A stretch of 50,563 bases of DNA from the IMG/VR virus record IMGVR_UViG_3300028045_000024, positions 1 through 50,563 of that record; one strand, 5' to 3'. This document shows positions 19,297 through 47,739 of the stretch, one piece after another (positions within the stretch are counted from its first letter, which is position 1; every line of letters starts with the position of its first letter). Both the position numbers and the translations under genes were made by a program. The notes under the pieces are model-generated. The model saw nothing but the letters and a program-made list of their open reading frames with translations. It ran no database searches and was not told the origin of the DNA. The DNA is from a virus.

Positions 19297-22200
19297 TTAT
19301 CTGTTTCTGAAATCTTCTTCTGCCAAAGCTGCTTTTGCTGAGCGTATCGCGTTCTGTAATTCAGCCTTCCGCTCCTTAATAGGGTACTTCAATTCGCGCT
19401 CCGGCGCCTTGGGCCGAGGGGCGATCCCCATCAGTTTCGTCATCATATACGCCATACCAGGGCCATATCCCTTCACCCAGTTGGGGTTGTCAACAGCCGC
19501 GTAATATTGCGGGAGTTGGGTCCCCACGATGGGCATCGAGCGCATAAGGATGACGAAAGACCTCGCCTCCCCGTCAACGTAGGGTCGCCCGTTCTCATCT
19601 CTGCGGACGCCACCAAACATGAGTTTACTGGCAAGGGTGTCTGCCTCGTGCGGCCGGAGATAGGTTCTTCCGCCACCGACATACTGCGTGCCCCCACTAA
19701 AGTTCTTAAGGGCAATCTCTGTCATTGCGCTTAAGCCCGGGGTCATTGCGGAGGTTAGTGGGTCTATTACAAGCGCCGAGGTGGCGTCAGATGTCATCTG
19801 CTGGCCTGTAGGTGATGGCAGTCCAGCCATTTCAGGGACGCCCATCCCCATCATGTACGCCCACATTCCTGCGCCGAGCCACTGGTTGGCCATATCCAGG
19901 GGGGTGAACGGAGGGACTAGGATGTCTTGGTATGTGAAGTCGTAGCCCCGTTTCTTGTACCACTCTCTGACCTTGGGGTCCATAATGGGCATCGAGTAGG
20001 CAGTTGCCCGAGATGCTTGCCACCAGAACGGGATGTCCCGGTTCATGGCGTCCCTTGCCTCTTCATAGGTTTTAGCCTGGCCCTCTTCGCCTGCGCCCTC
20101 CAAGTGGTACGCAGCAGCCGGGATCGTGTCCAACCCCTGCTCCATCTCGCGGATACGCCCCAAAGTCCGGGCGCCCTTTCCTCGGCTAGGAAGTGGGAGG
20201 CCCATAACTCGGCGGCCTGTCATCCCGTCTCTGGTGGAGAGCAGCATGTTTCTGAATAGTTGCTCGGATGCCAGCCGTTGGAATCTCCAGAATGTGAATA
20301 TCTGGGCGAGGACGTTCACCTCTGTCTTCCCCAGCGGCTTCTTCCAGTCGTAAAGCGCATTCATCATCCCACGCTTTGCGTCAGTTCTGGACCCCCCGCG
20401 GTTAAGCAGCTCCATGTAAAGCCCTGCTCTCTGCCTCTGCTGGACAAACGTGGCATGCTTCTGTATCGCCTCATTCACCTTCTTCGCGCTCTTTGCGCCA
20501 GGGAACTTAGAATTGGGCAGGAACTCCCAGAGGCCCTTGTGAGCGTCTCTAAGCCCCTCGAGGAGGGTCTCTTGGACAAACGTATCCATGACCCCGTCTT
20601 CCGCCATCATTCGGCGAACAGTTCCGACAGTGTAAGAGCGCCCGTCTTTTAGCTTGATTACATCGTCAGCGGAGCCGCTCCAGATCTTACTAAGATTCGG
20701 GTTGAATAGTGCATTCATCGCAGTTCCGAGAACAGGAACTCCCTCAAGTGATGCCGATGCCTTGAACATTGCGTCCTGCATGGGGCGACCTATGAAGGGG
20801 AGGTTTGCCGGAAGGTTCTGAAAGCTGAGCTTCGCTGCCGTATGGAGACCTTCCTCCCAGAATATCTGAGAGAAGTCGCCCACGATGTTGTTGACCCAGT
20901 ATCTAGGGTTTGGGAAAAGAAGGCCGGTGGTAATTGACGCCCGGAAGTAGCCCAGGATTGTCTTGAGCTGAAGAATGGCCCGGGCCAGAGGACCTGCGGG
21001 GTCCTTGTTCTGCTGGACTTCCAGGCTCTTGACAATGCGTCCCGAGAGCCTCTCTAGGTCGTCCATGAGCTTTTGGGGCACAAACCCACTGTGCCCCGAG
21101 CCGTCTTCCGAAAGCCTCACCAGCTGGGCCGTGACTTCTCCCACGTCATCAATGTCCTTTTTGATGGCCCTTGTTGTTGTGGCGAGACCGAGTTCGACCA
21201 ACTTATTCAGCGCAGCTGCGGCAGCCTTTCCTCCTCCAACTCCCTTGAAGTCGCCAACCAAGATTTTATTCATGTTGTCAACAAGCTCGTCAGACATCGA
21301 CCCAAAGGTGTTTACTGCGACACGAGACGCCTCGTCCATTACAACGCCGTTTACCACGGCTTCCTTAAAGAAGGTGTATGCGCCATCATCTCCAGCGACC
21401 TTGACGTCCTTCCCGCTTTGGTCAAGGATCCTCTTGGTGCCCGATTTCATGGCATTCATGAAGGCTTCGATGCTTTCGGCATCCATCTTGCCTTCTCTCA
21501 TCAGATCGGAGAGTGTATTCATAGCCACATGCGCCAAGGCCCCAGCTTGTTGGGGGCTGATCTTTTCGCTGCTTGGGAGATATAGCCTGGAGAGGGCCAG
21601 AAGCGTCTTGTTGAACTTCTCCTGGGCTTCCTCTATCGTTGACGGCTCAACAAATTTGGGCATCTCCATCTTGGGGCGCTTTGACGCCGCGCTTGTGATG
21701 AGCCTGTCGGATGCATCGGCCACGCGAGCCAGGTAGGAGTCCTTGATGCCAACCTTGTCCAGTCCCATGAATATATTCATGACCTTCATGAACTTAGACC
21801 ACAGGCTCTCTGGTCGCCCTTTGATTTCGTCTGGTGACTTGATCTTCTTCATGATTGTCTGAAAAACAGGGCTTGTGAGCGTGTATGTAATCAACTCGTA
21901 TGGACCCGCGGCGGTGCCCAGGACCTGGGAGTTCCAGCTCTTTAGTATTGCGATCTCCTCGTCTGTAAGGTCTGCGCCATACTTTGCAAGCAGGGCGTCG
22001 TCACCGATTGCCCTCGTTAGGAATTTCGTTAAGTCATCAATCTCAGATGCCGCCTGCTTCGCTTCGTCAGACATCTTGACAACCCGGCGGCCCTCCCTGG
22101 AGAAGGGAAGGTAGTCCATCATCTTCTGGACCGTCGCAGTGTGAAGAAGCTCGTGAACGATTGTCACAGGATTTGTGCCGCCAAGGCCGAGTTCATCCAG

Positions 22201-25200: not shown

Positions 25201-26460
25201 GATGTTCCCAAAGTCATCAGTAATGTCATACCCGCGACGAATAAGCTCTATGTGCTCTGGAGTGTTCCAGCCACCCGCATGGATTGCCGCTCCAACAGAT
25301 GTGCCAAGGGAGAGGGAGCCTATGTAGTCAAGGATCCCCTGGTCCTCGATTGTCGTTCGCACATTATTGAACGAGGCGTCTACGGGCGATGCCCCAGCTA
25401 CAGTGGCTCGTATGGGTCCCATGATCGCAGCGAGCGCCCCACCGACAAGAGGAACGTCCCCGAGATACCAGGGGTTCGTTCTTATATCCTCTGTCTTCTG
25501 CTCCGGGTCTGCATCGACAAAGTATACACCAAGGTTCTTTTGCATAATTGTAGAGACTTTCTGGCGAGCCTCTGCCTCAGCCTCTTCGTAGAACTTGTCC
25601 CTTGCTTCTGGCGGGGCAGAACCCCCTGCCTGGGCGAGTTTATTCCTGTAATACAAATCTGCAAGCTTGCTGCGGGCACCGTAAATGTCAAAGGCATGAG
25701 TGCCGTCCGATGTTCTATATAGGGGGAGGTTGACCATATCGAGCTGCGGGTCCATAAATGCAGTCATCAGGTCGTCATCAAGGTCCATGCCCAGAAGTAC
25801 TGCTTCGGGCGAGCCAAACTTACTGGTCCCCAGGGCTTTTCTTTGCCTGCGCTGGATGTCCTGCTCGCCAGAAAGCCTTTCGGAAGAAACGGTCTGGATG
25901 TTTCCAGCCTCATCCCTGTAACTGCCCCCAATTAAAAAGGACTGTTGTCCCACGTTGGGCCTTGGCGTCACTGCCTCAAGTTTCTTGTTCTGATAGTCCT
26001 CTATTTGCCAGAACACATCCGCGGCCCTGTCCTCCGAGACCGGTATCCCGTGTCTTTTCTGGATTTCTATCGCTGCGATCTTCCGCGCTAGAGGGTTGTT
26101 TCTGACAGACTCGTCTGTCCTCAACTTCTCAAAGAGAAGCTCATACTGCATCGGAGAGCTGGGGTCGTGCCCAAGTTCGGTTGATAACCTATCCAGGGCG
26201 GCGTCCTGCTCGTGGGCCTTTGCGGCCGCCGCCTGCATGGCCATATGCCGCCGCATCGCGGTCTCCATCAAGGGCGCAGGCGCCTTTAACTTCCTGTCTG
26301 CATCAGTCTCACCGGGGAGAATGTACGGGCGCTCGTACTGCTTTTCTGTGAACGATTCCTTAGCCCCGATGGGCAGCTTTGCTAGCTCCCCGCTCGATAC
26401 CGCAGGGGTAAAGCTCTCTGGCTTTATCTTCAGCTCCACCGAATCATCGGGCGTCGGCAT
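19297..26460 (-). CDS. Giant internal virion/polyvalent protein with zinc-peptidase motif, 2387 aa
   Basis: ATG 26460 has GGGGAG 6 nt upstream; the in-frame start at 26487 is less likely. Hydrophobic stretches lie near residues 340-400 and 455-490. A long coiled coil spans about 565-690 (LRKTRDRLKKAGDTLGAKRE, NLQKKRKKLQAQQ). A metallopeptidase motif VTIVHELLHTA has His1436, Glu1437 and His1440. Near 1830-1990 lies the pattern RASITTGLLFPNPRYWVNNI with FTFWRFQRL further on, which I associate with large polyvalent phage proteins (LPD38-like). Such giants are packed in the capsid and ejected into the host, where enzymatic domains remodel the envelope or host proteins. At 14% of the genome it is the largest gene. 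Confidence 0.85.
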   Translation of the reverse strand: MPTPDDSVELKIKPESFTPAVSSGELAKLPIGAKESFTEKQYERPYILPGETDADRKLKAPAPLMETAMRRHMAMQAAAAKAHEQDAALDRLSTELGHDPSSPMQYELLFEKLRTDESVRNNPLARKIAAIEIQKRHGIPVSEDRAADVFWQIEDYQNKKLEAVTPRPNVGQQSFLIGGSYRDEAGNIQTVSSERLSGEQDIQRRQRKALGTSKFGSPEAVLLGMDLDDDLMTAFMDPQLDMVNLPLYRTSDGTHAFDIYGARSKLADLYYRNKLAQAGGSAPPEARDKFYEEAEAEARQKVSTIMQKNLGVYFVDADPEQKTEDIRTNPWYLGDVPLVGGALAAIMGPIRATVAGASPVDASFNNVRTTIEDQGILDYIGSLSLGTSVGAAIHAGGWNTPEHIELIRRGYDITDDFGNIGKIMTPKFLESESLAAMNKKARLAGKAEFPVPDATFETLAALGPMLGLILIDPDPTLLLGPIGKGAKAIGKGLKLSSGALQTARLTSAQKLVKKLAKMTPEEIQNGGYERWLKEVEVQDRDLYEVFRERLHVNEGIASTENIGRAFAKRESALKKEAEGLRKTRDRLKKAGDTLGAKREKAALRKAELDLKESEAKLVAEKAYAETWKIRNGLYRNDIIGGATNLIDIAKRLRPVAKELDARRTQLFNLQKKRKKLQAQQADLVRKSLGRAVAGRPARSGSPVAIAAAQYTEKIRALEKVEAWFSSMGTVGQQEFFKRGSRFLYKNFEKNDIAPRDVTTALMVAFPKKSDLKSYLLNRRDLARIHNEIHTGFGSTSSRVFQTTDGKSYRMVGDRLAEQKNQDAQMPSVTWREGELPEAKKPRVLSGKTVFLGEYGIKQFRGWQESARSGGVASIEGDKLVLRNINPATKKLEVYEVIQFGKTPSVDARPVELLGETSVKGAPVGGGRAIQVEGYNQPSLGSKILSVADESKMSLEAELANAIGAKGFLMTYDKYVKASSDLAILMKKSGATAEEIRAMNAALRKNADETAAAAGALKVAEDGSSLLMGNNVLALAKEFDRSIDSIKPKVLNQSVYTGKINPLKGALKAADGGNQLLGDVVRKNLDEIYGADVVTRFFDEAQNQGTITTKAFEELITGAPRTLSQNDFEILDKGIMELEQRSDTLLTSGEELGRSLMNQMRSVYRTGLKNRTLFHKEFTKDYPIRSFVYDLKDSLRNAIGLDVGKYLRGVGQGASAAGYSGRVLDAYKTALEINGSLNQDISLVTRGYKGGKLIERLREYLGGTKAMEVKGGNFPETFMNTAPVSLFEQAARQAMSNQSTVSKLETRASDLKSGIDDSFNKKMTLAQKKEATADIEEKLASVGNNARDFIDLVTKNGVKGFTRQDAAILIHIRDYIPKDMPMVAASSDAFDDGVRGYYKYQINPRNNEVRPMGIWLRNMDGLDELGLGGTNPVTIVHELLHTATVQKMMDYLPFSREGRRVVKMSDEAKQAASEIDDLTKFLTRAIGDDALLAKYGADLTDEEIAILKSWNSQVLGTAAGPYELITYTLTSPVFQTIMKKIKSPDEIKGRPESLWSKFMKVMNIFMGLDKVGIKDSYLARVADASDRLITSAASKRPKMEMPKFVEPSTIEEAQEKFNKTLLALSRLYLPSSEKISPQQAGALAHVAMNTLSDLMREGKMDAESIEAFMNAMKSGTKRILDQSGKDVKVAGDDGAYTFFKEAVVNGVVMDEASRVAVNTFGSMSDELVDNMNKILVGDFKGVGGGKAAAAALNKLVELGLATTTRAIKKDIDDVGEVTAQLVRLSEDGSGHSGFVPQKLMDDLERLSGRIVKSLEVQQNKDPAGPLARAILQLKTILGYFRASITTGLLFPNPRYWVNNIVGDFSQIFWEEGLHTAAKLSFQNLPANLPFIGRPMQDAMFKASASLEGVPVLGTAMNALFNPNLSKIWSGSADDVIKLKDGRSYTVGTVRRMMAEDGVMDTFVQETLLEGLRDAHKGLWEFLPNSKFPGAKSAKKVNEAIQKHATFVQQRQRAGLYMELLNRGGSRTDAKRGMMNALYDWKKPLGKTEVNVLAQIFTFWRFQRLASEQLFRNMLLSTRDGMTGRRVMGLPLPSRGKGARTLGRIREMEQGLDTIPAAAYHLEGAGEEGQAKTYEEARDAMNRDIPFWWQASRATAYSMPIMDPKVREWYKKRGYDFTYQDILVPPFTPLDMANQWLGAGMWAYMMGMGVPEMAGLPSPTGQQMTSDATSALVIDPLTSAMTPGLSAMTEIALKNFSGGTQYVGGGRTYLRPHEADTLASKLMFGGVRRDENGRPYVDGEARSFVILMRSMPIVGTQLPQYYAAVDNPNWVKGYGPGMAYMMTKLMGIAPRPKAPERELKYPIKERKAELQNAIRSAKAALAEEDFRNR
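22141..22155 (-). other. HELLH zinc-peptidase motif in the giant protein
   Basis: Codes His1436-Glu-Leu-Leu-His1440, an HExxH zinc-binding site, in the context TIVHELLHTATV. It follows a beta-rich segment (GVRGYYKYQINPR) as expected for a metallopeptidase active site. The third zinc ligand could not be fixed by eye. Confidence 0.65.
24400..24760 (-). other. Coiled-coil region of the giant protein
   Basis: Residues about 567-687 of the 2387-aa protein are a near-continuous run of Lys, Arg, Glu, Ala and Leu in heptad style. It separates the hydrophobic N-terminal third from the peptidase and C-terminal regions and may mediate oligomerisation inside the head. Confidence 0.6.
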
Positions 26461-26461
26461 C

Positions 26462-28405
26462 CTAGTCTCCCCGCCCAAGTTCTTCAATTAGCTTTTTTTC
26501 CTGTATCTCGTTCCTTATTTGCTGGATGCTTTTGCCTCCGAATTGCGGCATTCTGACCCCCTCCCTAGGGTCGTTCAGCGCGCCCCAGGCGCCCCTCTGC
26601 TCTCCTTCGAGGAGAAGCTCATCAACAGGGCGGAATTGAGGGGTGCGCGCAGGGACCGGCTTCATGAGCGGCGCTCCCGGGACCGCGCCCTCTAGAACGT
26701 CTCCCATCTGCGCGGCGGCCTCCTCCGAAAGAGCTGGGTTGAAGTCGTCGGGGTGATACCCAAGCCCCTCTCGGCGCTCAAGGTACGCATCGTCATCTTC
26801 GGGCATCACATCTGGGGCGGCGCCTTTTGAGCGCAGTCCCTTTAGAATGGCTTGGCCCTCTCTGCTGACGCTGGGTGCGTCCAGCCGGGATTCTGCGCGT
26901 CTTTCATCCAGCCTCTGCGGCATAGACTTTTTATCCTTTGGAATAAACCCGAGCTTCCGCTTGTCTATTTCTCTGTCCATAATACCAAGAACACCCTCTA
27001 GTCTTCTTATCGTGTTCTCGTCCATCCCTTCCGTATTGTTCGCTTTGTGCAAGTCCTCCCCAATCCTGCCTCTCATTATGTTAAACCAGTCGTCTGGGAT
27101 GCCCCCGTAAGACCCGAACTCCGTCTTAAGTTTTTTAAGGTCGCGAAACAGCTTCTCGCCCACCATCTCCGTTGCCGGATCTGGCCCCTCGTCCACAGCC
27201 TCGGACTTGTCCCACCACTTTTGGGCACGGGGATCTTTCCCGGGATATTCAAGGGCTTCTGCTCGAAGGCGCCCAAGATCTTGTTCTGACGTGGCCCTAT
27301 CCTGAATACTAGGGTCAACAGTGGCTGCCTCAACAGCACCGCGGGCACCCTCTTCTCTGCCCCGTCCTAGTCGCTTTGAAATATACCGCTCGGTAGCCTT
27401 TGGTCCCTTGTTAAGGGCGACCAGAAAACCCAGTCTCTCCCCTGGCTTGAGGTTCATCCTCTCTGCCATCTCAATAAATTCCGGGTCCCTGTATATATCC
27501 TCCGCCAATTGGCCCAGGTCCCCACCGAGCTGCCTGCCGCGCTCTGCGATCTCAAACTCATGAGACCGAGACCCAGCAGGCACATTCTCATCATACAGAC
27601 CCTGAAGGGCGTCGGGGTTCCTTCCAGCGCCTGCGGCCGGGTTGGCACCAGAACCCATAATTCTCTTGAAGTAGCCAGCTCCTGCAAAGCTAGGGTCCCT
27701 CGTCGCCTTCAGATACTCGTTTGAAATTCCGCGCATCCTGTTCTGATCATTATGAAGCCTTGTCTGCGCGGCTTCTGCTGCCTTAAATCTAGTTCTAAGC
27801 GCGCTGTGCTCACCTGGGTGGCTGGCCAAGATTGCGTTCTTGACCTCCTCTGGGGTCGCCGGAACCTCTAGCTGCTCTCCTACGATCTGCAAGAAAGACA
27901 TAAGGTTTCGTTGACCGGCTGCGTCGGTGGTAAACTCCTCCATCACTGTGCGCCCAAGCCCACGAAGAAAGTCCTGGTTCCCTCGCCCCTCCAGGGCGAC
28001 TCCGGGGTTTCCTAGGCCAAACTGCTTAACGAGCTTGCTTGCTGCCGCAAAGGCCTCTTTTGTCTTGTCGCCCCTTTTGAGCATGTCTGCATTTATCTTC
28101 CCCAACTCCGTCAGCTTGGTTGATAGGAATTTTGCCTTCGCCGAGTTCGATGATGCCTGAACTGACGCCATCGCAGATACGAGCTTATCGTTCATTTTCT
28201 GCTGAGAATCCAGCCACAACTTGTATTTGCCAGAGCGCAGTGCTTCGTCGGCAGCCACCTGAGCGTCCTGCAACTTGGAGATGGCCAAGGACTGCCCGCG
28301 TCGTTGTGTTTGCGTAGGGTCTTCGGCAATTGGACCAGTGCCAGCTCCCGCTACTGTCCAGGCGCGTCTGTTGTATGCGTCAAGTTTCTCTTCAAGAGTA
28401 GCCAT
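26462..28405 (-). CDS. Probable ejection/internal virion protein, 647 aa
   Basis: Almost wholly helical, rich in Ala, Glu, Arg and Lys, with a Pro-rich acidic C-terminal third (APDVMPEDDDAYLERREG, VPARTPQFRPVDELLLEGE). It has no membrane segment or catalytic motif. It lies between a small Gly/Ala-rich protein and the giant protein, matching the position of the middle ejection protein in T7-like phages, and is presumed to be delivered with the genome. It starts at ATG 28405 in a TAATG overlap. Confidence 0.7.
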   Translation of the reverse strand: MATLEEKLDAYNRRAWTVAGAGTGPIAEDPTQTQRRGQSLAISKLQDAQVAADEALRSGKYKLWLDSQQKMNDKLVSAMASVQASSNSAKAKFLSTKLTELGKINADMLKRGDKTKEAFAAASKLVKQFGLGNPGVALEGRGNQDFLRGLGRTVMEEFTTDAAGQRNLMSFLQIVGEQLEVPATPEEVKNAILASHPGEHSALRTRFKAAEAAQTRLHNDQNRMRGISNEYLKATRDPSFAGAGYFKRIMGSGANPAAGAGRNPDALQGLYDENVPAGSRSHEFEIAERGRQLGGDLGQLAEDIYRDPEFIEMAERMNLKPGERLGFLVALNKGPKATERYISKRLGRGREEGARGAVEAATVDPSIQDRATSEQDLGRLRAEALEYPGKDPRAQKWWDKSEAVDEGPDPATEMVGEKLFRDLKKLKTEFGSYGGIPDDWFNIMRGRIGEDLHKANNTEGMDENTIRRLEGVLGIMDREIDKRKLGFIPKDKKSMPQRLDERRAESRLDAPSVSREGQAILKGLRSKGAAPDVMPEDDDAYLERREGLGYHPDDFNPALSEEAAAQMGDVLEGAVPGAPLMKPVPARTPQFRPVDELLLEGEQRGAWGALNDPREGVRMPQFGGKSIQQIRNEIQEKKLIEELGRGD

Positions 28406-37485: not shown

Positions 37486-38646
37486 CTACGCGATTGCGGA
37501 GCCGGTAACGGCGCCGTTAGCTCGAAGCTGGTTAGTGTGGATACCCATGTTCAAGACAATTTCGTAACGGAAAAGGTCTTGCTCGGGGATACGGAAAGGA
37601 CCACGAACAGAGAAGTCGCCCTTGGTTTCGCGACTTGCGTCGTGCCCGAGGGTGTATGCGTGCCAGCATGCGGTGTTGATGAAGTAGATAACCCCATCGT
37701 TAGCAGCATTTGCCGGAGCATTGGGAGTTCCGTCTCCAGCCTGATTCCAGGCTGCGTTTGTGATGTCGATGCTATCTTCAAGGTAGAAGTCTGCATCGAG
37801 GAACTTAACGCCTTGTCGGATTTGCTTGGGAGCGCGGTCACCGGCTTTTGTCGAGTCGGAGATGATGCGAACCTGCGAATCCAGGCTATCAAGATAGTTG
37901 AGGTAAGACGCTTCATCGCCCAACAGCAGGTCAACGGGACCCATTGTCTTCATCTGACGCGCTGCCGCAAAGTACACTTGACGCATGGTGCTTCGTCCAT
38001 TGGATGCAGCAAAACCAGCGGCGGGAATATCTCCCCACTGGTTGTACCATCCGTCCGTTCCGCCGGAAGTCAGCCCGTAGCGTCGATCGCTCGTGCCTAG
38101 CGGGGCGCCGCCAGTTTGCTGTGCCACGCGGCTGCCGAACTTAATAGCACCAGAGCGAGCCGCTCCGTTGGGGCTGTAAGTTGTAGCGCCGTTCAGGGTC
38201 GCAAACCCAGCAACACCAGGACCCGTTCCCTGGGCGAACTGCTCGGAGATTCGCTCATGGAAGTCAGCAAGGGCCAACTCTGGGTAGTGTTGAATGATTC
38301 GAGCAAGGTCCATCTCGCCATTTGCTTCAGCCAGGTCCTTTCCTGGTACGTCAAATGCGTAGATGAGTCGAGGTGCGTAAGTATCACCACGAGCTGCTGC
38401 CTGGTTACGTCCACCGGCAATGACTTCAGACCCTGTGACAACTTGAGTCACAGAACCGGGACCACCGGTAACTACAGCAAATTCACGGAAAGGGCCTTTC
38501 AGGACGCTGCGGTCCATATTTCCCTTGTTGATGATCCGATCCAAGACCGGATGCCATTTCGCGAATAGTTCAGAATATGATGGCATCAGTTCTTGAAGAG
38601 CTGTGGCCAACACGTCTGGACTGATTCCAGTTCCTACAGTAGGCAT
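37486..38646 (-). CDS. Major capsid protein, 386 aa
   Basis: Placed between scaffold and decoration genes. Segments such as LMPSYSELFAKWHPVLDRII near the start, SVTQVVTGSEVIAGGRNQAA, PRLIYAFDVPGKDLAEANGE and RYEIVLNMGIHTNQLRANG at the end fit an HK97-fold coat protein of podoviruses. No protease gene is seen near it, so scaffold removal may occur without cleavage, as in P22. It forms the icosahedral head. Confidence 0.85.
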   Translation of the reverse strand: MPTVGTGISPDVLATALQELMPSYSELFAKWHPVLDRIINKGNMDRSVLKGPFREFAVVTGGPGSVTQVVTGSEVIAGGRNQAAARGDTYAPRLIYAFDVPGKDLAEANGEMDLARIIQHYPELALADFHERISEQFAQGTGPGVAGFATLNGATTYSPNGAARSGAIKFGSRVAQQTGGAPLGTSDRRYGLTSGGTDGWYNQWGDIPAAGFAASNGRSTMRQVYFAAARQMKTMGPVDLLLGDEASYLNYLDSLDSQVRIISDSTKAGDRAPKQIRQGVKFLDADFYLEDSIDITNAAWNQAGDGTPNAPANAANDGVIYFINTACWHAYTLGHDASRETKGDFSVRGPFRIPEQDLFRYEIVLNMGIHTNQLRANGAVTGSAIA

Positions 38647-38649
38647 TTT

Positions 38650-39498
38650 CTATCTCCTAGCGTTTTTGAGTGCTCTGCGAGCCACAATCATGCGTTTATC
38701 GTCTAAAGACGAGGTTTCGTTGATGTCCATCATCTGTTGATCAGGTGATGAACGAGTGGTGGCTCCAGAGGTTATCTTCGCCGCAGGACGAGGATCCGAT
38801 TTCGGCCGAGGCCTAGATGCGTTTTCTGCCAACCGTAGTGCGTATGAATCGGGCACACCGTCCCGCTTTGCCTCAAGGGCGACTTTCATCGTCTCCCTAT
38901 CAAGGCTAAGAAGTTTCACGCCAACCTCCGGGTCCCACTGATTCTCTATCAAAATAGCTAGAGCCTCACGCTTTTCAGGGTCCTCAAAGATTTCGCTGTG
39001 TTTTTGTTTAAAGTTCTGAGCGTAGCTGGCTGCATCCCTATCTAAAGACGCATCAACCTCCGCCCTATATTGCTCGTATTCCCTCTGCACGCCTTCCCTT
39101 GCGGAAATCTCGGACTCATATTTTGACTGAAAGTCGGCCACGCGAGGATCTTCCTCACCGACCATTAGCGCGTCATTCAGACGACGGAGCTGGTCCATGT
39201 CGCCTTCCAGTGCGCCAAACTTACTGCCAAACAATTCCTCCATGCGGCCGTGGACCCCATGATACCTTTCGGGCAGGTCGTCAACACCACCCTCCCAAGC
39301 ACTAAAGTCAAACTCGGGAAGCTCCGGCTCTTCCTGAACGGGCGCTGGCGCCTCGTCAGGTGCCGCTTCTACCGCACCCTCATGAGAGGGAGCCGCCTCA
39401 GAATCGGAGGCAACAGAAGAATCAATGGCTGGAGAAGAAGATTCAGCAACCGGCTCGGCTGCGGCCCCCTCTAATGCCTGGGTCTCTTCTACGCTCAT
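38650..39498 (-). CDS. Scaffolding protein, 282 aa
   Basis: Very acidic, low-complexity N-terminal 75 residues (Ala/Glu/Ser/Pro), a helical middle and a basic C-terminal helix at 265-282 (LDDKRMIVARRALKNARR). In P22 and phi29 the basic C-terminal helix of the scaffold binds coat protein. The pattern KRM-x2-AR-x-AL in this helix recurs at the N-terminus of several other late proteins. It overlaps the upstream gene in an ATGA junction and lies 3 nt before the capsid gene. It guides procapsid assembly and leaves before packaging. Confidence 0.85.
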   Translation of the reverse strand: MSVEETQALEGAAAEPVAESSSPAIDSSVASDSEAAPSHEGAVEAAPDEAPAPVQEEPELPEFDFSAWEGGVDDLPERYHGVHGRMEELFGSKFGALEGDMDQLRRLNDALMVGEEDPRVADFQSKYESEISAREGVQREYEQYRAEVDASLDRDAASYAQNFKQKHSEIFEDPEKREALAILIENQWDPEVGVKLLSLDRETMKVALEAKRDGVPDSYALRLAENASRPRPKSDPRPAAKITSGATTRSSPDQQMMDINETSSLDDKRMIVARRALKNARR

Positions 39499-39812
39499 TT
39501 GCGCTTACCTGACTGGTTCAGCGCCTTGCGTGCAGATGATAAACGGATGACGGAGAGCTTTGGTGGGGATGCGTGCATGCCCAGCTCTTTTTCGATCGAA
39601 TCAAAGTCTTCGGAGGGACCCTCCTTTTTTCGAAGCTCCCACCCGTGCTTGTCAAGAGTTTCCATGAACTCCTCAGAACTACCGGCCTCATTAACCAGGT
39701 ACTCAACCATTTCTTCTTGAGTATAGTCCTTCTTCTCGCCTTCTTCGGGAGCCTCTTCAGAAACCTCTTCTTCAGACTCTACCTCTTCTTCCATTTCGGA
39801 TTCATACGGCAT
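39495..39812 (-). CDS. Mini-scaffold-like protein, 105 aa
   Basis: ATG 39812 has GGAGG 5 nt upstream; a TTG at 39824 is less likely. The first 35 residues are almost only Glu and Ser (EMEEEVESEEEVSEEAPEE), followed by a helical part and a basic C-terminus (residues 86-105: RLSSARKALNQSGKRK). The ending shares R-x3-AR-x-AL with the scaffold C-terminus. It looks like a short paralogue or partner of the scaffold that could modulate assembly. Confidence 0.7.
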   Translation of the reverse strand: MPYESEMEEEVESEEEVSEEAPEEGEKKDYTQEEMVEYLVNEAGSSEEFMETLDKHGWELRKKEGPSEDFDSIEKELGMHASPPKLSVIRLSSARKALNQSGKRK

Positions 39813-39853
39813 TTGGGCCTCCAATGGTCAAGTACAGCATTTTGTCAACAAAG

Positions 39854-40240
39854 TCAATCATTTCGAGCCTGTTGCCTTTTTTTCAGAAACTTCCCGCGCG
39901 CCTCATGGTCGCTAAAGCCTTGTTTTTTTGCCTTTTTGTCGCAGTGGTTTCTCACAGAATCGTAATGACTTCTCCATTCCTTACTGTCCTTCTGTACAAA
40001 CTTTGCATCAGGATTTTCTTTCTTGTAATTCCGGAGCTGCTCGTTTGTTTCAAACTTCTTTCCTATCTGCCCAAACTCTATTGGCTTGCTAAATAGGGCG
40101 CCAATGGCCAGGACCGGGGAGACCAGTCGTACCGCAGGACCAGAACAGTCTGGACATACAATACTATCGGCATCACGAAGAAGAACATACACCTCATTCT
40201 TTCCACATCCAGAGGTGCATCGAACATCGTAAAGGGGCAT
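39854..40240 (-). CDS. FmdB-type zinc-ribbon protein, 128 aa
   Basis: Starts MPLYDVRCTSGCG and continues to SIVCPDCSGP: two Cys pairs (Cys8, Cys12 and the CPDC pair) give a zinc ribbon of the FmdB type. The C-terminal 70 residues are basic and helical (EARGKFLKKRQQARND). Such ribbons occur near portal and scaffold genes in several phages with no known function. It may bind nucleic acid or a capsid partner. Confidence 0.75.
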   Translation of the reverse strand: MPLYDVRCTSGCGKNEVYVLLRDADSIVCPDCSGPAVRLVSPVLAIGALFSKPIEFGQIGKKFETNEQLRNYKKENPDAKFVQKDSKEWRSHYDSVRNHCDKKAKKQGFSDHEARGKFLKKRQQARND

Positions 40241-42052
40241 CTATAACTCCAGTTTTCCGCGCAAGGCGTTTGGAAGAGTGTTTCCGGCGCCGCCATTCTC
40301 CATCGGCATCGGCGGAGGCTCAAGCCCTGGCGGCATCCCTCCCGTGGCCACTGACTCCACCCCAGGCTGCGCAGCCGCGGCGGCGCCTCCTGGTTGCGCT
40401 CCCTGCTGCATCTGTGCCGCCATTGCCTGTTGCATCTGCTGCTGTTTGGCCGCCATTTCCTCCTGGGAGACAGCCAGGTCTTTCATATTCAACAGATCGA
40501 GAAGTTTTGCGATTAGTCGATTCTTGTCTACGTTTTCCGCTTGCATTAGTATGGGCAGGAATGACTGAAGGCTTCTAAGTTGTGCGAGCTTGTTATTCTC
40601 CGCCGGAGAGTAGGCGATAGCTTCATAGTCGTAATCAAAGCCGCCTGCTTCAATGGCGCCCATGCTTTCTCTGGATATAACCACTGGCTCCTGGGTGTCA
40701 GAGACCCGGGCGACCATCTGGCTTGTGGGGTCAAGGAACTCCTCGAAGAGGGCGATCGAGTTAAGGGCCAGGGACGCGATTACGTCATTGACTGCCTTGA
40801 TTCTGCGACCGTTTCTGGTTCTGGTTGCGGAGTCAGCAAGCGCAACCTCCGTCGCGACATCTGTAACGCCCACAACACCGCGGGAGTATTGGGGCACCCC
40901 GAGAACAAACTCAATGACCTGCTGGCAGCGGGCGCGCATTTTGTCGAAGGACGGTGTTAGTCCTGGCTGTGGTGTGGCCCCGAATAGGTCCTTTAGTGGA
41001 ACGTCTGCTTTTCCGTGAACGTCCACAACGGAACCCGGTTCGGAGGCATCTCGGATCGCCGTCTTAACCTGCTCAGGATTATCAACAAGAGCGCTTTGAA
41101 TAAGCGTAACAGGAATGGAAGACTGAGCATGCCATAACTCCAGGGTATCAAGTTCGTTTAGTCGCTGCTGAAGGCTTGAAATCAGAGCGATGTCCGATAG
41201 ACCGGCAAGGTCTTTCATGTTCTCGTTGAACTGGAGCATCGTGAATGGGTTGTCTGCGTATGTGTAGGGGAGGTCTCCCTCAAAGAGGGGCTTGTCTACT
41301 CCATCAATAATGTGGTAGTACTTTTTGTTTTCAAAGTCGTAGAACTCGTACACTGTGGCCCAGTTGTAGACGTCGTTCGACGCATTGTTGACCATACTCC
41401 TGTTTCCACTCACGTCCTTCAGCCAGCTCGGGTAGCCCCCAAAGTTCACCTCATCCATAACCTTGTGAGGGTAAAATCCCCCCTTTCGCCCAGGCTTCTT
41501 TATGCGCTTCTTAAACTCGTCCTTGGTGATGACGGAGACCTCGACGAGGTATCTAATATCTTCCCAGCGCGTGGCTGACATATCGAAGAAGACGTAACGC
41601 GGGTCTACGACCATGAACTCAACAGTCTCTCTCTTGAAGTTCCAGACGGTCTTCATGAATCCCCGGCCGCAGATTGCAGTTCCGATGCACAGGCGCCACA
41701 AGTCGGCATGGAGCTTCTGTCGGTAAAACACGTCGTTAATCAGTGCCTCTCTTACCGATGCTGGCTCTGTGTTTTCCTTTCTCCTGGCCGTGACCGTGAT
41801 CTTCGGGTTCGTCGGGCAGATGTTCGCAACCATCGTATCAATGTATGCGTACGGATAGTTGGTCTCAAAGTTGACATCATCATCAGTGACGCCCGTCTCT
41901 GCGGAGAATGCCCCCGTGGGTGATGAGTAGTCCTGGGACCAGTACTCCCCCAGATACCAGCGGCGCCAGGAGTCCCACATCTGGCGCTCCCCTGATGCCT
42001 TTGCCTGATGGGTCTTTATTATCCCCTGGATTTGCTCATTGGTTAAGCCCAT
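40241..42052 (-). CDS. Portal protein, 603 aa
   Basis: Begins LTNEQIQGIIKTHQAKASGE, then MWDSWRRWYLGEYW, and has FGATPQPGLTPSFDKMRARC and the long helix with VGVTDVATEVALADSATRTR typical of podovirus portals. The C-terminal 100 residues are Gln/Met/Ala-rich (QQQMQQAMAAQMQQGAQPGG), like the barrel extensions of large portals. It forms the dodecameric DNA gate. It overlaps the preceding gene by 1 nt. Confidence 0.88.
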   Translation of the reverse strand: MGLTNEQIQGIIKTHQAKASGERQMWDSWRRWYLGEYWSQDYSSPTGAFSAETGVTDDDVNFETNYPYAYIDTMVANICPTNPKITVTARRKENTEPASVREALINDVFYRQKLHADLWRLCIGTAICGRGFMKTVWNFKRETVEFMVVDPRYVFFDMSATRWEDIRYLVEVSVITKDEFKKRIKKPGRKGGFYPHKVMDEVNFGGYPSWLKDVSGNRSMVNNASNDVYNWATVYEFYDFENKKYYHIIDGVDKPLFEGDLPYTYADNPFTMLQFNENMKDLAGLSDIALISSLQQRLNELDTLELWHAQSSIPVTLIQSALVDNPEQVKTAIRDASEPGSVVDVHGKADVPLKDLFGATPQPGLTPSFDKMRARCQQVIEFVLGVPQYSRGVVGVTDVATEVALADSATRTRNGRRIKAVNDVIASLALNSIALFEEFLDPTSQMVARVSDTQEPVVISRESMGAIEAGGFDYDYEAIAYSPAENNKLAQLRSLQSFLPILMQAENVDKNRLIAKLLDLLNMKDLAVSQEEMAAKQQQMQQAMAAQMQQGAQPGGAAAAAQPGVESVATGGMPPGLEPPPMPMENGGAGNTLPNALRGKLEL

Positions 42053-42594
42053 TATTCTCCGCCTTCTTCTCGGTACTCTTCTCCAGGCTTGCCGTACTTC
42101 TTTGCTCGTTTTGCAAACGGAGACTCTTCGTTAGAAAACTTCTCTAAGTCTCTAAGCCCGTCAATTGATTTTTCAGATTCATCCCATGTACGTCTTCTTT
42201 CGGCACGCGAATTTAACCAAGGGCCTATGTCTCTCTCAAAAGACGGGGACAACTTAATAATACCATCCTTCTGAAGGTCTAAAAGTTCTAAAATGACATC
42301 ATCGGGAAGATGCGGCTCCTTGTCGTACAGCTTGGCCCAGACTGATCTGTCGGATTCTCGTGCATGATCGAATTCACGGCGCGCAGCGCTCGCGGCTTTT
42401 CTTGAGCTGTCTAGGGCATCATGGATTGTCTCGCCGCCTCGGGGAGATGCAACCACTTCCGGCACTGCGCCTCGGACATCTCCCGACAAGTCTTCTACAT
42501 CTCCACCGGCAGCCTCGAACTCCTCCACTTGGGGATGCTGTTGGGCCAGTTTTCTAGCAAGTGCTTCTCGTTTTTCTCTCATTAAGTCGGCCAT
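42052..42594 (-). CDS. Tagged late protein 1, 180 aa
   Basis: Starts MADLMREKREALARKLAQQ, the shared N-terminal tag (Lys8-Arg9, Ala13-Arg14). After a linker, the rest is helical and acidic (ASAARREFDHARESDRSVWA, ELLDLQKDGIIKL). It lies between portal and tagged protein 2. The tag resembles the scaffold C-terminal helix, suggesting packaging into the head. Function of the body is unknown. Confidence 0.7.
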   Translation of the reverse strand: MADLMREKREALARKLAQQHPQVEEFEAAGGDVEDLSGDVRGAVPEVVASPRGGETIHDALDSSRKAASAARREFDHARESDRSVWAKLYDKEPHLPDDVILELLDLQKDGIIKLSPSFERDIGPWLNSRAERRRTWDESEKSIDGLRDLEKFSNEESPFAKRAKKYGKPGEEYREEGGE

Positions 42595-43166
42595 TACTGC
42601 TCCCCGTAATACTCTTTAATAAATGCCGCATCTTCAAGGGCGGCCTTCTGCTCCTCGGCCATTCTTTTGAACTCTGCTTCCTGAGCCTGCAACTCTGCCA
42701 TCTCTGGGCGAACATCCCCGTGAGAGCCTCTGTCAATCAATTGGGCAATTTCGGCTTGATCGGCGGGATCCGCCAGCACAGGCGGCTTGGTAAGTCCGGC
42801 GTAATGGCGCCCAGCCCACTCTCGGCGATACTCTGGAATCCTATCCAAATGCGCAAAATATGCCCGTGCAGCAGGAGTCCGGTAGCGCATTATGTTCCAC
42901 TCCTCTGGGGGCAGGTCATAGGGGTTTAAGTAGGTGTCATCTACCTCATGGGGGTCAGTGGCCTGCGCAACCGCGGCCGACTTCTTCATCTCACGATCCT
43001 CCTCACCAGCGATGTCGGGGTCGAAGGTGGAGCGCTGAATGCCCCCCAGATGTGCGCCCGCTCTTGTGCCGGGCTTGCTTACACCACCATACGCTGGCTT
43101 ACCAGGGCTTTCTGCCAAAGCGTCTCTGGCTATCTTCATGCGCTTTTCTCTCATTAAGTCGGCCAT
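42594..43166 (-). CDS. Tagged late protein 2, 190 aa
   Basis: Starts MADLMREKRMKIARDALAES, the tag with the closest match to the scaffold end (KRM-x2-AR-x-AL). Its end AAFIKEYYGEQ is related to the FYGGD ends of two other tagged proteins. The DNA over the start (43144-43171) is identical for 28 nt to the start of the next gene (42572-42599), which points to duplication of the tag. Confidence 0.7.
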   Translation of the reverse strand: MADLMREKRMKIARDALAESPGKPAYGGVSKPGTRAGAHLGGIQRSTFDPDIAGEEDREMKKSAAVAQATDPHEVDDTYLNPYDLPPEEWNIMRYRTPAARAYFAHLDRIPEYRREWAGRHYAGLTKPPVLADPADQAEIAQLIDRGSHGDVRPEMAELQAQEAEFKRMAEEQKAALEDAAFIKEYYGEQ

Positions 43167-43354
43167 TACTGTGCTCCTAGTCCTGATTCGTACATTTCAA
43201 TCATTTGGTCATCCACTTCTTCCACGGGGACTCCAAAGTGGTTGGCTGTGGCGTGTTTTAGGTTTGCGGATTTCGCAATGGCGCTTCTTGTTTTTGAGAT
43301 AGCATCCGGTTCGACCTGGACGTTTTCATCAACCTGGATGTTTTCGTCAATCAT
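43166..43354 (-). CDS. Small late protein, 62 aa
   Basis: Short acidic protein with a near-repeat at the start (IDENIQVDENVQVE). The centre, SKTRSAIAKSANL, is reminiscent of the tag pattern (R-x2-IAKS) but internal. Lies between terminase and tagged protein 2 with 4-nt and 1-nt overlaps. Function unknown. Confidence 0.6.
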   Translation of the reverse strand: MIDENIQVDENVQVEPDAISKTRSAIAKSANLKHATANHFGVPVEEVDDQMIEMYESGLGAQ

Positions 43355-45054
43355 CGTCGCCTCCTTACAGAGCGGTATCGGCTGCGCCCGCGCTTTTTGT
43401 TCTTATCATCGCTCTCTGACTTTCTATATGCCTGTAGTTGGTTCCAAGTCAAATCCTTAAAGAGCACCACGTTCCCCTCTGTTCCTTTGTCAAGGGTTCC
43501 CTTGGGTCTTTGCGGAAGTCTTCTTGCGCCAACGACGGCTAATTGTAGCGCAGAAATCTTATCCCAGTGGTGTCTTTCTCTTCTCTTGGGTCCCACGCTG
43601 CCCTTTAGCATTTCTGATACGACAGATGTTTCCGTTCTTTTATCGTGGCGATACGAGCATAGTTGCCCGTAGGTGTCTTCGTCATTGATGACGAGTTCGT
43701 CCATCAGGGCGTCTTGTATCCATCCGATCATCTCTTCCAGTTTTTTGGAAGTACTTGTAAGCCCTGCCTTGTAGGGCTTCTCGTAGTAGAGGTTGGCGTA
43801 CTCGGCCTGCTTAGCGAGCGCGATGGTTGCGGCCCCAACGCCATTGGACTCGATGACGACCTTTGCTCGGTTGTACTTCTCTGCGACCTCGAGGAGCCTC
43901 CTGGTGAAGAGTATTGGCTCTGTGTGGTCTGCATAGCAGGCGACCTGTGTCCACTCTCCTTCATAAACTTTAAGTACTTGGAAAGACGCATGGTCTCGTG
44001 CAGCGTGTCCGGCGGGATCGACTCCGATGGCATAGATGGCTCCCTCTTCTGGCGGTTCGTACTCCATGTATGGGGCAGACCACTTCTCCATTTTCCTATC
44101 GCGGTGCTTTTTTAGCAAGCCCTCGTTGAAGATGGCCCGGTGGTTTGAAATCCAGCATGACAGGTCGTCGAAAGGATAGAACACACGAAACAGCGCGGGG
44201 TCTCTTCTAATCTGCGCATCCGTATTCATCATGAAGCGCCTGAACGCAAGGTTCTCCCTCTTCAGTCCAAGCTCTCCGTATTTCTCCATCAGCCGCAACT
44301 CTTCGAGAGATAGCTTGTCTTCTTTTCTCCATGGTCTTTGATTCAGCTTCCCATCCCAGAACGGAAAGAACGCATAAACCCACCGGCCGCTTCCGGCCTT
44401 CGCGTCGTTACATTGGTCGTGCCACCAGTCACCCGCATGCAGGGGTGTGGATTCCAGGATCATCAATGAGTGGTCCCGGTTAATCATCGACGGGTAAATC
44501 AGCGAGAACTGCCCCTCGGGGTCAGACCAGAACGGAAGCTCGGAGCCGTGAAAGGAGTCTGGAGACTGACCAATTCCCACGCTTCCTGACTCGCCCGACA
44601 TGACGCGCATCTTCCCGCCCCTGGCTGGGTCAAACGAGAGCTGGCGAACCTCCCTGGTGGCGCTTGTGGGGGTCCTGAGCTTCTCTGGCCATCGGGCGTG
44701 AGTAAAGTGAACTCTGCGGTGCAGGTACTCTGCGCGGTCCCTTGTATCCGCGATACAGACATGGTCCATTCCTGGTGTGTATGCGGTTTTCGCGTACGCG
44801 CACAGTTCCGCGGTCAGGGACTTCCCTGCCTGCCGGTAGCCCAGGAGAACGAGCCATTTAGTCTGTCCGTCTCGCGTCTTTGGTGGGTTGGAATAATATG
44901 ACAGTATAGTAGACTGCAAACTGTGTGTAATCTTATAGGGGTCAAACGGTACGGAGTTCCCGCTAGCCTGGTCGCGGATTTGTCCATACGCCCGTAGCAT
45001 GGAGCTTGGGGTGGGTGTTGGCGTGGGTGTTTTAGTCGTTGACCGCTTCGGCAT
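43351..45054 (-). CDS. terL: Terminase large subunit, 567 aa
   Basis: ATPase-nuclease that drives DNA into the head. Walker A-like GYRQAGKS is at 72-79, SFHGSELPFWSDPEG carries the Walker B-region acid, and the C-terminal nuclease starts at AIGVDPAGHAARDHASFQV with its metal-binding Asp; VVIESNGVGAATIALAK follows. The N-terminus has a Thr-Pro repeat linker. It overlaps the upstream small gene, a terminase small subunit candidate, by 23 nt. Confidence 0.93.
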   Translation of the reverse strand: MPKRSTTKTPTPTPTPSSMLRAYGQIRDQASGNSVPFDPYKITHSLQSTILSYYSNPPKTRDGQTKWLVLLGYRQAGKSLTAELCAYAKTAYTPGMDHVCIADTRDRAEYLHRRVHFTHARWPEKLRTPTSATREVRQLSFDPARGGKMRVMSGESGSVGIGQSPDSFHGSELPFWSDPEGQFSLIYPSMINRDHSLMILESTPLHAGDWWHDQCNDAKAGSGRWVYAFFPFWDGKLNQRPWRKEDKLSLEELRLMEKYGELGLKRENLAFRRFMMNTDAQIRRDPALFRVFYPFDDLSCWISNHRAIFNEGLLKKHRDRKMEKWSAPYMEYEPPEEGAIYAIGVDPAGHAARDHASFQVLKVYEGEWTQVACYADHTEPILFTRRLLEVAEKYNRAKVVIESNGVGAATIALAKQAEYANLYYEKPYKAGLTSTSKKLEEMIGWIQDALMDELVINDEDTYGQLCSYRHDKRTETSVVSEMLKGSVGPKRRERHHWDKISALQLAVVGARRLPQRPKGTLDKGTEGNVVLFKDLTWNQLQAYRKSESDDKNKKRGRSRYRSVRRRR

Positions 45055-45400
45055 AAGTTCCCTCTATTGTGGTGTACGATGCCTCTACTTCATCTTCCTG
45101 CACCTGGGTTAGCGCGTCAATCAGTTCGACGTAAGTGTCCCCGGAGTTCATCGCCGCGGCTTCTCGTGCGGCGAGAGATGCGAGCATAATCTCGGCCCAT
45201 TTGCAGGCGGCGTCTGCGGCAACGGGAGCGATGTGCCCTGCGAGTACATGTGTCATCACCTTTTGGGCAAATGATACAACGTCGTCATAGGACGATATTT
45301 CTGTTTCGGCGAACATGACGGCGAGTTTCTCGCGGTGTTCTACGGGAACTCGTTCCAGCCATTCAATGTATTCGTCAGGATCAAACTTACTGCGTCCCAT
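45032..45400 (-). CDS. Candidate terminase small subunit, 122 aa
   Basis: AGGAGA precedes ATG 45400. Helical throughout (FDPDEYIEWLERVPVEHREK, AADAACKWAEIMLASLAARE) and acidic at the end. Its size and its 23-nt overlap with the large terminase fit a small subunit that recognises the packaging site, but no HTH motif is clear. The alternative is an unrelated assembly factor. Confidence 0.55.
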   Translation of the reverse strand: MGRSKFDPDEYIEWLERVPVEHREKLAVMFAETEISSYDDVVSFAQKVMTHVLAGHIAPVAADAACKWAEIMLASLAAREAAAMNSGDTYVELIDALTQVQEDEVEASYTTIEGTYAEAVND

Positions 45401-45408
45401 CTGTTCTC

Positions 45409-46119
45409 CTAATCAGCTCTGTGTATTTCGCCATTGGAGTTCCACTCCCAGACGCTGCCGTCCCCGGCCTCAAAGTAAATGTTATCCGGCACTCCGTCTT
45501 CGTGCTCTGCCGATGTTTTGAGAAGTTTAAGTCCCACAAACTGTTCTGCGAGCATGTCTTCGACGGCAATTCTAACGGCATCGTCTGTCCTGGGGTCAGG
45601 AAAGTTGGCGTCTTCTATTTGGGCGTCAATCTCATCTCTTTGGTTTTGGTTGTTAACCTTTTGGGCCTCTTCCGCAGTCATGCCCTCCTGCTGGGCCTGC
45701 CACCAGGACGGGATGTCTCGTTCGTCGGTGTCCGTATTTCCCAGCTTGGATGGTGAGAATTGTGGCTTTGCTGCATGGCCGCGGCTTTCATACCACTTTG
45801 TAAGCTCGTCGGAAACGGGGGGTTTGCTTTCGCCCTTGTAGGAGTCGCCCATCTTGATTTTGAATGGGTCTCCGGCGCCTTTTGGCGGAAGATATTCTAT
45901 CTCCCTTTCTCCAGTGCTCTCAAGCGTACCTCCGCCTGGAAGATCTTCGCCCACACGATACCACTGACCGGGGGTAGAGGAAATCTGAATCCGTTGGCTG
46001 CCTGGTGAATCGGGGTCAGCCTCCATCACGTTGACATCAAACTGAGGGCGAGCAAAAGACGGCTTTTGGGAAAGCGATTTTGCAATCTCCATTCGCTTGT
46101 CTTTCAACAAATCTGCCAT
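45409..46119 (-). CDS. Tagged late protein 3, 236 aa
   Basis: Starts MADLLKDKRMEIAKSLSQK with the shared tag. The body has a small beta-rich region (RIQISSTPGQWYRVGEDLPG) and a second beta segment near the end (DNIYFEAGDGSVWEWNSNG). It overlaps the previous stop by 1 nt. Function unknown; the tag suggests head targeting. Confidence 0.7.
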   Translation of the reverse strand: MADLLKDKRMEIAKSLSQKPSFARPQFDVNVMEADPDSPGSQRIQISSTPGQWYRVGEDLPGGGTLESTGEREIEYLPPKGAGDPFKIKMGDSYKGESKPPVSDELTKWYESRGHAAKPQFSPSKLGNTDTDERDIPSWWQAQQEGMTAEEAQKVNNQNQRDEIDAQIEDANFPDPRTDDAVRIAVEDMLAEQFVGLKLLKTSAEHEDGVPDNIYFEAGDGSVWEWNSNGEIHRAD

Positions 46120-46928
46120 CAGTCACGCTCCTGGGTGTCTTTCATTGGGTCTCTTCTACCCTGCATATAGGCTTTCTCTGCGGCCGCTTCTCTAGCGGCT
46201 TTCATCTCGTCAACGTATAGTGGTACTGGGTTCCCATGTTGGTCACGGGCCATGGCCTCTTTGGGGACATTAGTCCACCCCAGCTCTTGCATGGCCAACG
46301 CTCTGTTTCGGGGAATGTCTTTTAGGCCTAGCTCTTCTAGCTTGGCTTTAAGGAGTTCTTCTCCTGGTGTTTTCTTCCAGCCCATCTGCGTTCTTGGGAG
46401 TCTGTCATCTATAGCTAAACGCTTGAGTTCTCTTAGTGCAGCCCTTCCTCCGCTCTCCGGGTTACCAAAGTCTAAGGCTTCTAAGATCTCCTGTACGCGA
46501 CCAGGACGGTCTTCCTGCGCACCTGGGGCGGTCATGTCTTCCGCTACCTCGTTCTGCAAGTCTTGCATGGCTTGCTTATCTGCTGCACCTAAAATGCGCA
46601 GATTAGAATTGAGGGCTTTTTTGTAATTCTCCCATCCCTTTAGTTTGTTTCTTTTTGTGGAGACCGTTTCGCCCCAGCTATAGTGTTTGTCTGGGGTAAG
46701 CCGCATGGCCCCCTCGGCGCCCCATGGACCAGCCCGCAAATCACTAGCGCTGTCTATTGTTTGATCTCGTACAAGGTCCCTGGGACGCCATCCTGGTACG
46801 TTCTCCCTAAGCCTATCCAAGATGTACTTGTCCGTTTCCCGGTCTGGCTTGTAGCCCTGGCGTTTTTTGCCCTTAGCTATGGCCTTCTCTACAATCTCCA
46901 TCCGCTTGTCTTTCAACAAATCCGCCAT
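46119..46928 (-). CDS. Tagged late protein 4, 269 aa
   Basis: Starts MADLLKDKRMEIVEKAIAK. The DNA over the start (46892-46935) matches that of tagged protein 3 (46083-46126) at 42 of 44 positions. The body is helical and basic (KLKGWENYKKALNSNLRILG, EELLKAKLEELGLKDIPRNR) with no known domain. It overlaps the preceding gene in an ATGA-type junction. Confidence 0.7.
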   Translation of the reverse strand: MADLLKDKRMEIVEKAIAKGKKRQGYKPDRETDKYILDRLRENVPGWRPRDLVRDQTIDSASDLRAGPWGAEGAMRLTPDKHYSWGETVSTKRNKLKGWENYKKALNSNLRILGAADKQAMQDLQNEVAEDMTAPGAQEDRPGRVQEILEALDFGNPESGGRAALRELKRLAIDDRLPRTQMGWKKTPGEELLKAKLEELGLKDIPRNRALAMQELGWTNVPKEAMARDQHGNPVPLYVDEMKAAREAAAEKAYMQGRRDPMKDTQERD

Positions 46929-47272
46929 CAGTCACCCCCGTAGAAGTCTTTTATATCTGCAAATCGGTTTGGCGCGGCCTTTGCGTTTTGGCCTGTTTTG
47001 ACGAATCCTTTCTGGGCCGCCTTTCTTTGCGCCCTGGTCATGGAGTACGGGTCTGCTATCTTCGTCGGCTCTGCCTGGGCTTTTTTAATGAAGTCTGGGA
47101 CGGGGTATTTCTTCTGCGGCTCTACTGCGTTTTTTGGGGGACGCCTGTCTTGTTGGTTGTAGGACCGGATCTGCTCCCTCTGTGAGGCTGTGGGCTTGCC
47201 CTTTATTCCCATGATTCCCTTTGTGGTCTCTTTCCCAGAAAGCAGCTCTCTTATCATGTCTGCAATATTCAT
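46928..47272 (-). CDS. Late protein with FYGG ending, 114 aa
   Basis: Basic, Gln/Arg/Lys-rich protein (REQIRSYNQQDRRPPKNA). Its start MNIADMIRELLSG is a weaker relative of the tag. It ends FADIKDFYGGD, very close to the end of the upstream gene (IREMKNFYGGDR). Probably part of the same set of capsid-associated proteins. Confidence 0.65.
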   Translation of the reverse strand: MNIADMIRELLSGKETTKGIMGIKGKPTASQREQIRSYNQQDRRPPKNAVEPQKKYPVPDFIKKAQAEPTKIADPYSMTRAQRKAAQKGFVKTGQNAKAAPNRFADIKDFYGGD

Positions 47273-47739
47273 CGATCACCCCCATAGAAGTTTTTCATTT
47301 CACGGATGCGTCTATCTATGTCGCTCATGGACTCTTCCGCCTCTCTATCCCGAGCGTCCTCCTGTTCAAAGAACTTTCGCAGTAAGTAGTAGCGCAGCTC
47401 TTCAGACATCTGTGGCAGTTGGTTGATTCCGCCCGAGAAGTCCATGCGCCGATGTTCGTTTCCTAGTCGTGACATGAACTCGTATCGTTCTTGTGGCTTT
47501 TCTGGGGCGATCCCGATGCCGGAACCCATTACGTCACTTCTCATTTTTTGCATCTGGGCGTCAGAGTCGGCTTGTTCTTTCTGCCATTCTGATGGGGCCA
47601 GGAGTTCTTCAAACAGGCGCTGGTCTTCCTTAGTCATCCCTGTGCCCCCGGGCGTCACCTTGGGGAGAGCACTCTCGGTCTCCTTAGGGAGAGCCTTCTC
47701 TACAATCCTCGTTCGCGCAGGCTTTAACAAATCTGCCAT
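47269..47739 (-). CDS. Tagged late protein 5, 156 aa
   Basis: Starts MADLLKPARTRIVEKALPK, the most diverged copy of the tag, and ends IREMKNFYGGDR. It thus carries both the N-terminal and the C-terminal shared motif. The body is acidic and helical (FEELLAPSEWQKEQADSDAQ). It overlaps the next gene by 4 nt. Function unknown. Confidence 0.7.
   Translation of the reverse strand: MADLLKPARTRIVEKALPKETESALPKVTPGGTGMTKEDQRLFEELLAPSEWQKEQADSDAQMQKMRSDVMGSGIGIAPEKPQERYEFMSRLGNEHRRMDFSGGINQLPQMSEELRYYLLRKFFEQEDARDREAEESMSDIDRRIREMKNFYGGDR

Follow-up and report, generated by a model that had tools for sequence, protein, structure and literature searches.

A helix motif shared by a putative scaffold C-terminus and unrelated head-block proteins of an uncultured marine phage family: a possible capsid-targeting label

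Introduction

How phages choose the proteins that are packed into their heads is understood for very few systems. Internal proteins of T4 reach the prohead via an N-terminal capsid-targeting sequence (CTS) of about 10 residues (PMC7697877, PMC9026906). The accessible part of PMC5512222 describes T4 Alt as a head-packaged ADP-ribosyltransferase (ART) and yielded no scaffold-shared targeting tags. In P1, the N-terminal 30 residues of DarB suffice to send a reporter to the capsid (PMC9024508). In P22, basic C-terminal helices fasten the scaffold to the N-arm of the coat protein (PMC9965877), and cargo fused to the C-terminal part of this scaffold gets packaged in engineered particles (PMC9962691, PMC9965877). 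A cargo tag that mimics a scaffold, or that equals the scaffold's terminal helix, was not found in the open-access literature that was searched.

Here we analyse a stretch of viral DNA (IMG/VR virus record IMGVR_UViG_3300028045_000024, positions 1 to 50,563; 50,563 nt, "the window"), in which five late proteins share an N-terminal tag that resembles the end of a putative scaffold. A first-pass annotation of this DNA knew of no described system of such a layout, a statement that overlooks the T4 CTS (PMC7697877, PMC9026906) and the P1 DarB signal (PMC9024508), both of which do a similar job. As on IPI, IPII, IPIII and Alt of T4, a short conserved N-terminal peptide is found on several otherwise unrelated head-block proteins, and an ART is among the (here putative) cargo, namely Alt in T4 and ART-PolyVal proteins in relatives of the window phage. 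The T4 CTS, however, targets the scaffold core and is removed by gp21, whereas the tag described here resembles the scaffold's own terminal helix, its motif occurs at either protein end, and searches of the window, the record of which may be incomplete, yielded no prohead protease (Peptidase_S78, with a positive control that was recovered; S77, a search that had no positive control). With no T4-like or HK97-like prohead protease found, a CTS release step would therefore be missing or different. DarB, a large injected defence protein, also has an N-terminal packaging signal, but Dar N-termini have no common consensus and no reported scaffold resemblance, whereas here one motif recurs on many proteins. 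P22 shares a basic helical scaffold C-terminus as the (here presumed) docking element, with the coat gene directly downstream of the scaffold gene in our locus; in P22 this element is a helix-turn-helix and its cargo fusions are man-made, whereas here natural phage proteins bear it. Polyvalent proteins are similar in that ART-PolyVal domains above the curated cut-off occur in some relatives' tagged bodies, but they differ from the window's own tagged proteins, in which no ART-PolyVal was seen.

Materials and Methods

Gene starts were called by a simple script, so individual starts may be in error. The N-termini of all window proteins were ranked by similarity to the last 20 residues of the putative scaffold. 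Searches with the portal protein and the terminase large subunit (TerL) yielded 86 further viral contigs, loci of which are numbered with an L. Several loci are close relatives of one another, which makes locus counts non-independent; we therefore counted clusters. "Block" denotes the terminase-to-capsid (head and packaging) genes. A position-specific model ("scaffold-trained") was built solely from 23 scaffold C-terminal 14-mers and scanned over all other proteins. In the reverse direction, a de novo motif was derived by expectation-maximisation on 272 non-redundant head-block N-termini, with scaffolds and acidic proteins left out. When a motif model was iterated on its own matches, it slid towards Lys/Ala-rich sequence and was dropped; the analysis relies on the scaffold-trained model and one de novo model alone. 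Contigs from a later capsid-protein search and from a bacterial-genome search entered no model and served as hold-out. The curated cut-off for ART-PolyVal is 31.2 bits.

Results and Discussion

Late genes and the putative scaffold

The late genes are located on the minus strand in the order helix-turn-helix-like gene, tagged block, probable small terminase, TerL, further tagged genes, portal, zinc-ribbon protein, small acidic protein, putative scaffold, capsid protein and tail genes (Table 1; genes are named by their lower coordinate).

Table 1. Coordinates of late-region features in the window.
Feature	Position	Strand	Remarks
Major capsid protein, proposed docking partner	37486..38646	-	phrog_9953 major head protein, E 6e-5; conserved N-terminal segment
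Putative scaffold, 282 aa	38650..39498	-	Directly upstream of the major capsid gene; assigned from synteny and predicted shape
Scaffold C-terminal helix, residues 265-281	38656..38706	-	Contains motif KRMIVARRAL
Small acidic protein, 105 aa	39495..39812	-	Adjoins scaffold; C-terminus SVIRLSSARKALNQSGKRK / SVIRLSSARKAL, scaffold motif in the same spacing
Portal protein, alternative docking partner	40241..42052	-	phrog_156; P22_portal PF16510, E 2.5e-10
Tag MADLMREKREALARKLAQQH	42535..42594	-	N-terminus of 180-aa protein 42052-42594; rank 4 against scaffold end, p about 0.03
Tag MADLMREKRMKIARDALAES	43107..43166	-	N-terminus of 190-aa protein 42594-43166; 12.9 bits (scaffold-only model); rank 2
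TerL	43351..45054	-	phrog_2; PF17289
Probable small terminase (TerS)	45032-45400	-	
Tag MADLLKDKRMEIAKSLSQKP	46060..46119	-	N-terminus of 236-aa protein 45409-46119; rank 3
Tag MADLLKDKRMEIVEKAIAKG	46869..46928	-	N-terminus of 269-aa protein 46119-46928; 8.4 bits (scaffold-only model); rank 1
Untagged 114-aa protein	46928..47272	-	Two-gene cassette with 47269, absent from nearest relative L006
Tag MADLLKPARTRIVEKALPKE	47680..47739	-	N-terminus of 156-aa protein 47269-47739; clear MADLL-set member, weak scaffold match

Synteny and predicted shape (an acidic disordered N-terminus, a long helical hairpin and a tethered C-terminal helix) suggest that gene 38650 encodes the scaffold. The protein matched no PHROG or Pfam family above cut-off and had no significant PDB sequence match, and its structural model gave weak fold matches only, with no informative structural relative. 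AlphaFold2 predicts an isolated helix at residues 265-281 (pLDDT about 80) behind a low-confidence, flexible linker. In an alignment of 31 scaffolds R269 and A276 are invariant, and R-x-x-[VAI]-A-x-x-A-[LFM] is retained at nearly all scaffold ends of relatives. The motif KRMIVARRAL, initially given as the end of the scaffold, is present, but the true end is KRMIVARRALKNARR and the motif stops five residues earlier. Likewise, the five tags initially listed as motif carriers are real, but the list was incomplete, because the motif recurs, with identical spacing, at the C-terminus of the adjoining acidic protein; roughly half of the relatives have it there as well.

Five N-terminal tags in the window

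All five genes reported to begin with MADL(L/M) (42052, 42594, 45409, 46119 and 47269) are open on the minus strand from the starts given. Across the 50.6 kb record, a DNA pattern for the first tag residues matches at these five positions and nowhere else; the reversed control gives no match. Four tags have Lys8-Arg9, as had been noted, and Ala8-Arg9 takes its place in 47269. Similarity to the scaffold end is highest for 46119, 42594 and 45409, each with a score reached by 0/300 shuffles, while the N-terminus of 47269 matches it no better than chance (p about 0.24). Under the scaffold-only model just two of the five tags in the window reach 8 bits.

The bodies of the tagged proteins, described as dissimilar, indeed have no convincing similarity once the first 24 residues are removed (best E 0.03-0.08), and no recognised domain (PHROG, Pfam) and no ART was seen in them. 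An exception to this dissimilarity is a 12-residue C-terminal end, including FYGG, that is common to the 46928 and 47269 proteins, with a looser version in 42594. This second shared end, [IM]K[DNES][FY]Y(G), is found at the C-termini of 46928-47272, 47269-47739 and 42594-43166 in the window and of 6239-6715 in L007; a looser regular expression hits 6/924 distinct C-termini vs 2/1004 internal 12-mers. It is possibly another docking motif.

The motif in an uncultured phage family

The pattern extends from one genome to an uncultured marine phage family. Portal and capsid proteins had no match in 50,697 cultured phage records, and TerL is only 21-26% identical to cultured phages among the matches listed. 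In closer relatives the wording of the tag differs and its pattern is kept (e.g. MDKLKKKRTELAKKL, MDKMRSKRMEIVKNYY, DLMAGARNAIAKKAL); some relatives have few tags or none. A relative of the family, L202 (CP070713.1; TerL 52% identity), is embedded in the chromosome of a Myxococcales MAG; it may be a prophage and so point to a host group.

At 10 bits or more, the scaffold-trained model found 30 distinct motifs in 30,245 N-terminal positions (the first 25 residues) vs 14 in 251,618 internal positions, of which there are about eight times as many. After the proteins had been clustered on their bodies, at least one N-terminal match was found in 19 of the 466 clusters; with one representative per cluster, 13 N-terminal matches were observed against a shuffled mean of 0.7 and a maximum of 2. 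The reverse test yielded the motif K-D-L-R-E-K-A-A-K-K-A-L in about 30% of the 272 N-termini; written more generally, the motif learned from these N-termini is R-x-x-[AIV]-A-[KR]-x-A-[LMF]. With a threshold of 6 bits, this de novo motif was recovered in 28 of the 30 distinct scaffold C-termini, against 1 after reversal and 2.7% after shuffling. It also matched 17 of 30 C-termini of the acidic protein (3 after reversal), and 0% of the C-termini of TerL, portal, TerS, capsid or labelled tail proteins. Tags are also confined in location: in 14 long genomes, 12/167 block genes have a tag of at least 10 bits vs 1/568 genes elsewhere (Fisher p=1.4e-7), and the single tagged gene outside the block lies just downstream of the capsid gene.

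Among the hold-out contigs, 9 of 109 new dissimilar N-termini passed 8 bits where 0.5 were expected. In the hold-out relative in the Myxococcales MAG chromosome the scaffold ends with ERRLFAVRRAMRVHNGGKR, and a neighbouring protein has MEEMRLNAAREAW after about 12 residues. The original idea of one motif shared by the scaffold end and many unrelated proteins is thus strongly supported in both directions and on held-out loci, and the comparison across related phages that the first-pass annotation had proposed shows a common pattern kept family-wide in tags and scaffold ends. Covariation by lineage, which the earlier hypothesis might predict, was not detected: a phage's tags were not significantly closer to its own scaffold than to others (p=0.30; 19 variants only), which agrees better with one conserved pocket throughout than with rapid co-evolution.

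Tagged proteins in relatives

Two tagged proteins of relatives have ART-PolyVal domains well above cut-off (L036, 12345-13910, 59.1 bits; L037, 9782-11353, 62.3 bits). A 1,013-aa protein of L044 combines GNAT and ART-PolyVal domains, and its C-terminus is formed by a related AARRAF end. The N-terminal tag is missing from at least two ART homologues (L091, L086), and Pfam was empty for most other tagged bodies, most of which have no known domain. An AlphaFold2 model of a tagged ART was set aside (mean pLDDT 38). Behind the tag, the proteins of L031 to L035 have a stretch that is shared in part, after which their bodies differ, an effector-like architecture; the proteins at L031 6498-7844, L032 6355-7341, L033 4553-6376 and L035 12427-13719, with divergent C-terminal bodies, look like a polymorphic effector series. 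The 105-aa family phrog_7595 is tagged in this phage family, and homologous proteins of cultured marine phages begin differently; this agrees with a family-specific tag, without proving that the tag was added.

A probable docking helix as a proposed cargo label

Because the motif residues (i, i+3, i+4, i+7 and i+8) lie on one helix face, the scaffold helix is predicted to be tethered, and P22, T4 and P1 offer precedents, we read the tag as a capsid-targeting signal of the scaffold-helix type. In our judgement it is probably a capsid-targeting sequence copied from the scaffold's docking helix, which would put tagged cargo into the procapsid. The tag would act as a short helical docking motif imitating the phage's own scaffold C-terminal helix, which itself probably binds the inner capsid protein shell, or the portal, in procapsid assembly, as in P22. 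Proteins with the docking helix at either end would bind coat or portal at scaffold-helix sites and in this way become procapsid cargo, and some of this cargo may then be injected into the host with the DNA, including the ARTs of relatives. We infer such loading from the head-block location of the tagged genes and from the ART-PolyVal effectors among the tagged bodies of relatives. The wider proposal, that throughout this marine phage family copies of the scaffold's coat-docking helix serve as an interchangeable label at either end of dozens of unrelated proteins and load variable effectors into the head, as a natural parallel to the engineered P22 scaffold-fusion cargo system, is evenly balanced between belief and doubt.

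The preference for a docking helix has to be weighed against three other readings. Tag and scaffold end could dock on another head-assembly partner, portal or terminase, so that tagged proteins would be packaging or portal factors. The tagged genes do adjoin the portal and terminase genes, and according to the accessible parts of PMC12005531 and PMC13386823 the P22 scaffold also touches the portal; ART-PolyVal cargo, however, suits injected proteins better than packaging factors, and we regard this reading as unlikely, although coat docking is not separable from it here. Even less probable, in our view, is a generic role of the tag as a basic amphipathic helix at the N-terminus that binds nucleic acids or membranes, with a scaffold likeness that reflects composition. 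Lys, Arg and Ala do abound in tags and scaffold ends, with net charges of +1 to +5, but the match is lost in shuffled and reversed sequences, TerL C-termini show no match although they are very basic, and the motif is lacking in genes outside the head block; we consider this explanation very improbable.

The DNA itself invites another interpretation, in which the tag is a recombination join, i.e. a repeated start region for cassette shuffling that implies no common protein function. Neighbouring tags have about 40-66 bp of near-identical DNA. Comparison of window 46119-47739 with L006 1928-2857 reveals a two-gene cassette (the 46928 and 47269 genes) that is present in the window and missing in L006, and its breakpoint falls inside the tag, within about 66 bp of tag DNA that forms a direct repeat. 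Against this, the motif is conserved at the protein level across genomes on bodies that are unrelated, it is also found at C-termini, and it equals the scaffold end; recombination may exploit the tag without being its purpose. A mere join is hence distinctly unlikely to be the explanation, if somewhat less so than a generic helix.

Should the docking helix work as proposed, the arsenal of proteins that an uncultured phage family injects could be listed by simply scanning for the motif, candidate host-takeover enzymes would come to light, and capsid engineering would gain a compact cargo tag. Such a helix would further suggest a way in which cargo loading evolves, namely by adoption of the docking helix of the scaffold.

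Other proteins of the window

Two further proteins of the window were recorded. A 2,396-aa late protein (19297-26487) has a VHELLH metallopeptidase-like motif and no Pfam match, and is likely a giant internal virion or polyvalent protein. A short protein (16762-17079) has near-repeats of ARGLFASVVH followed by LQG repeats.
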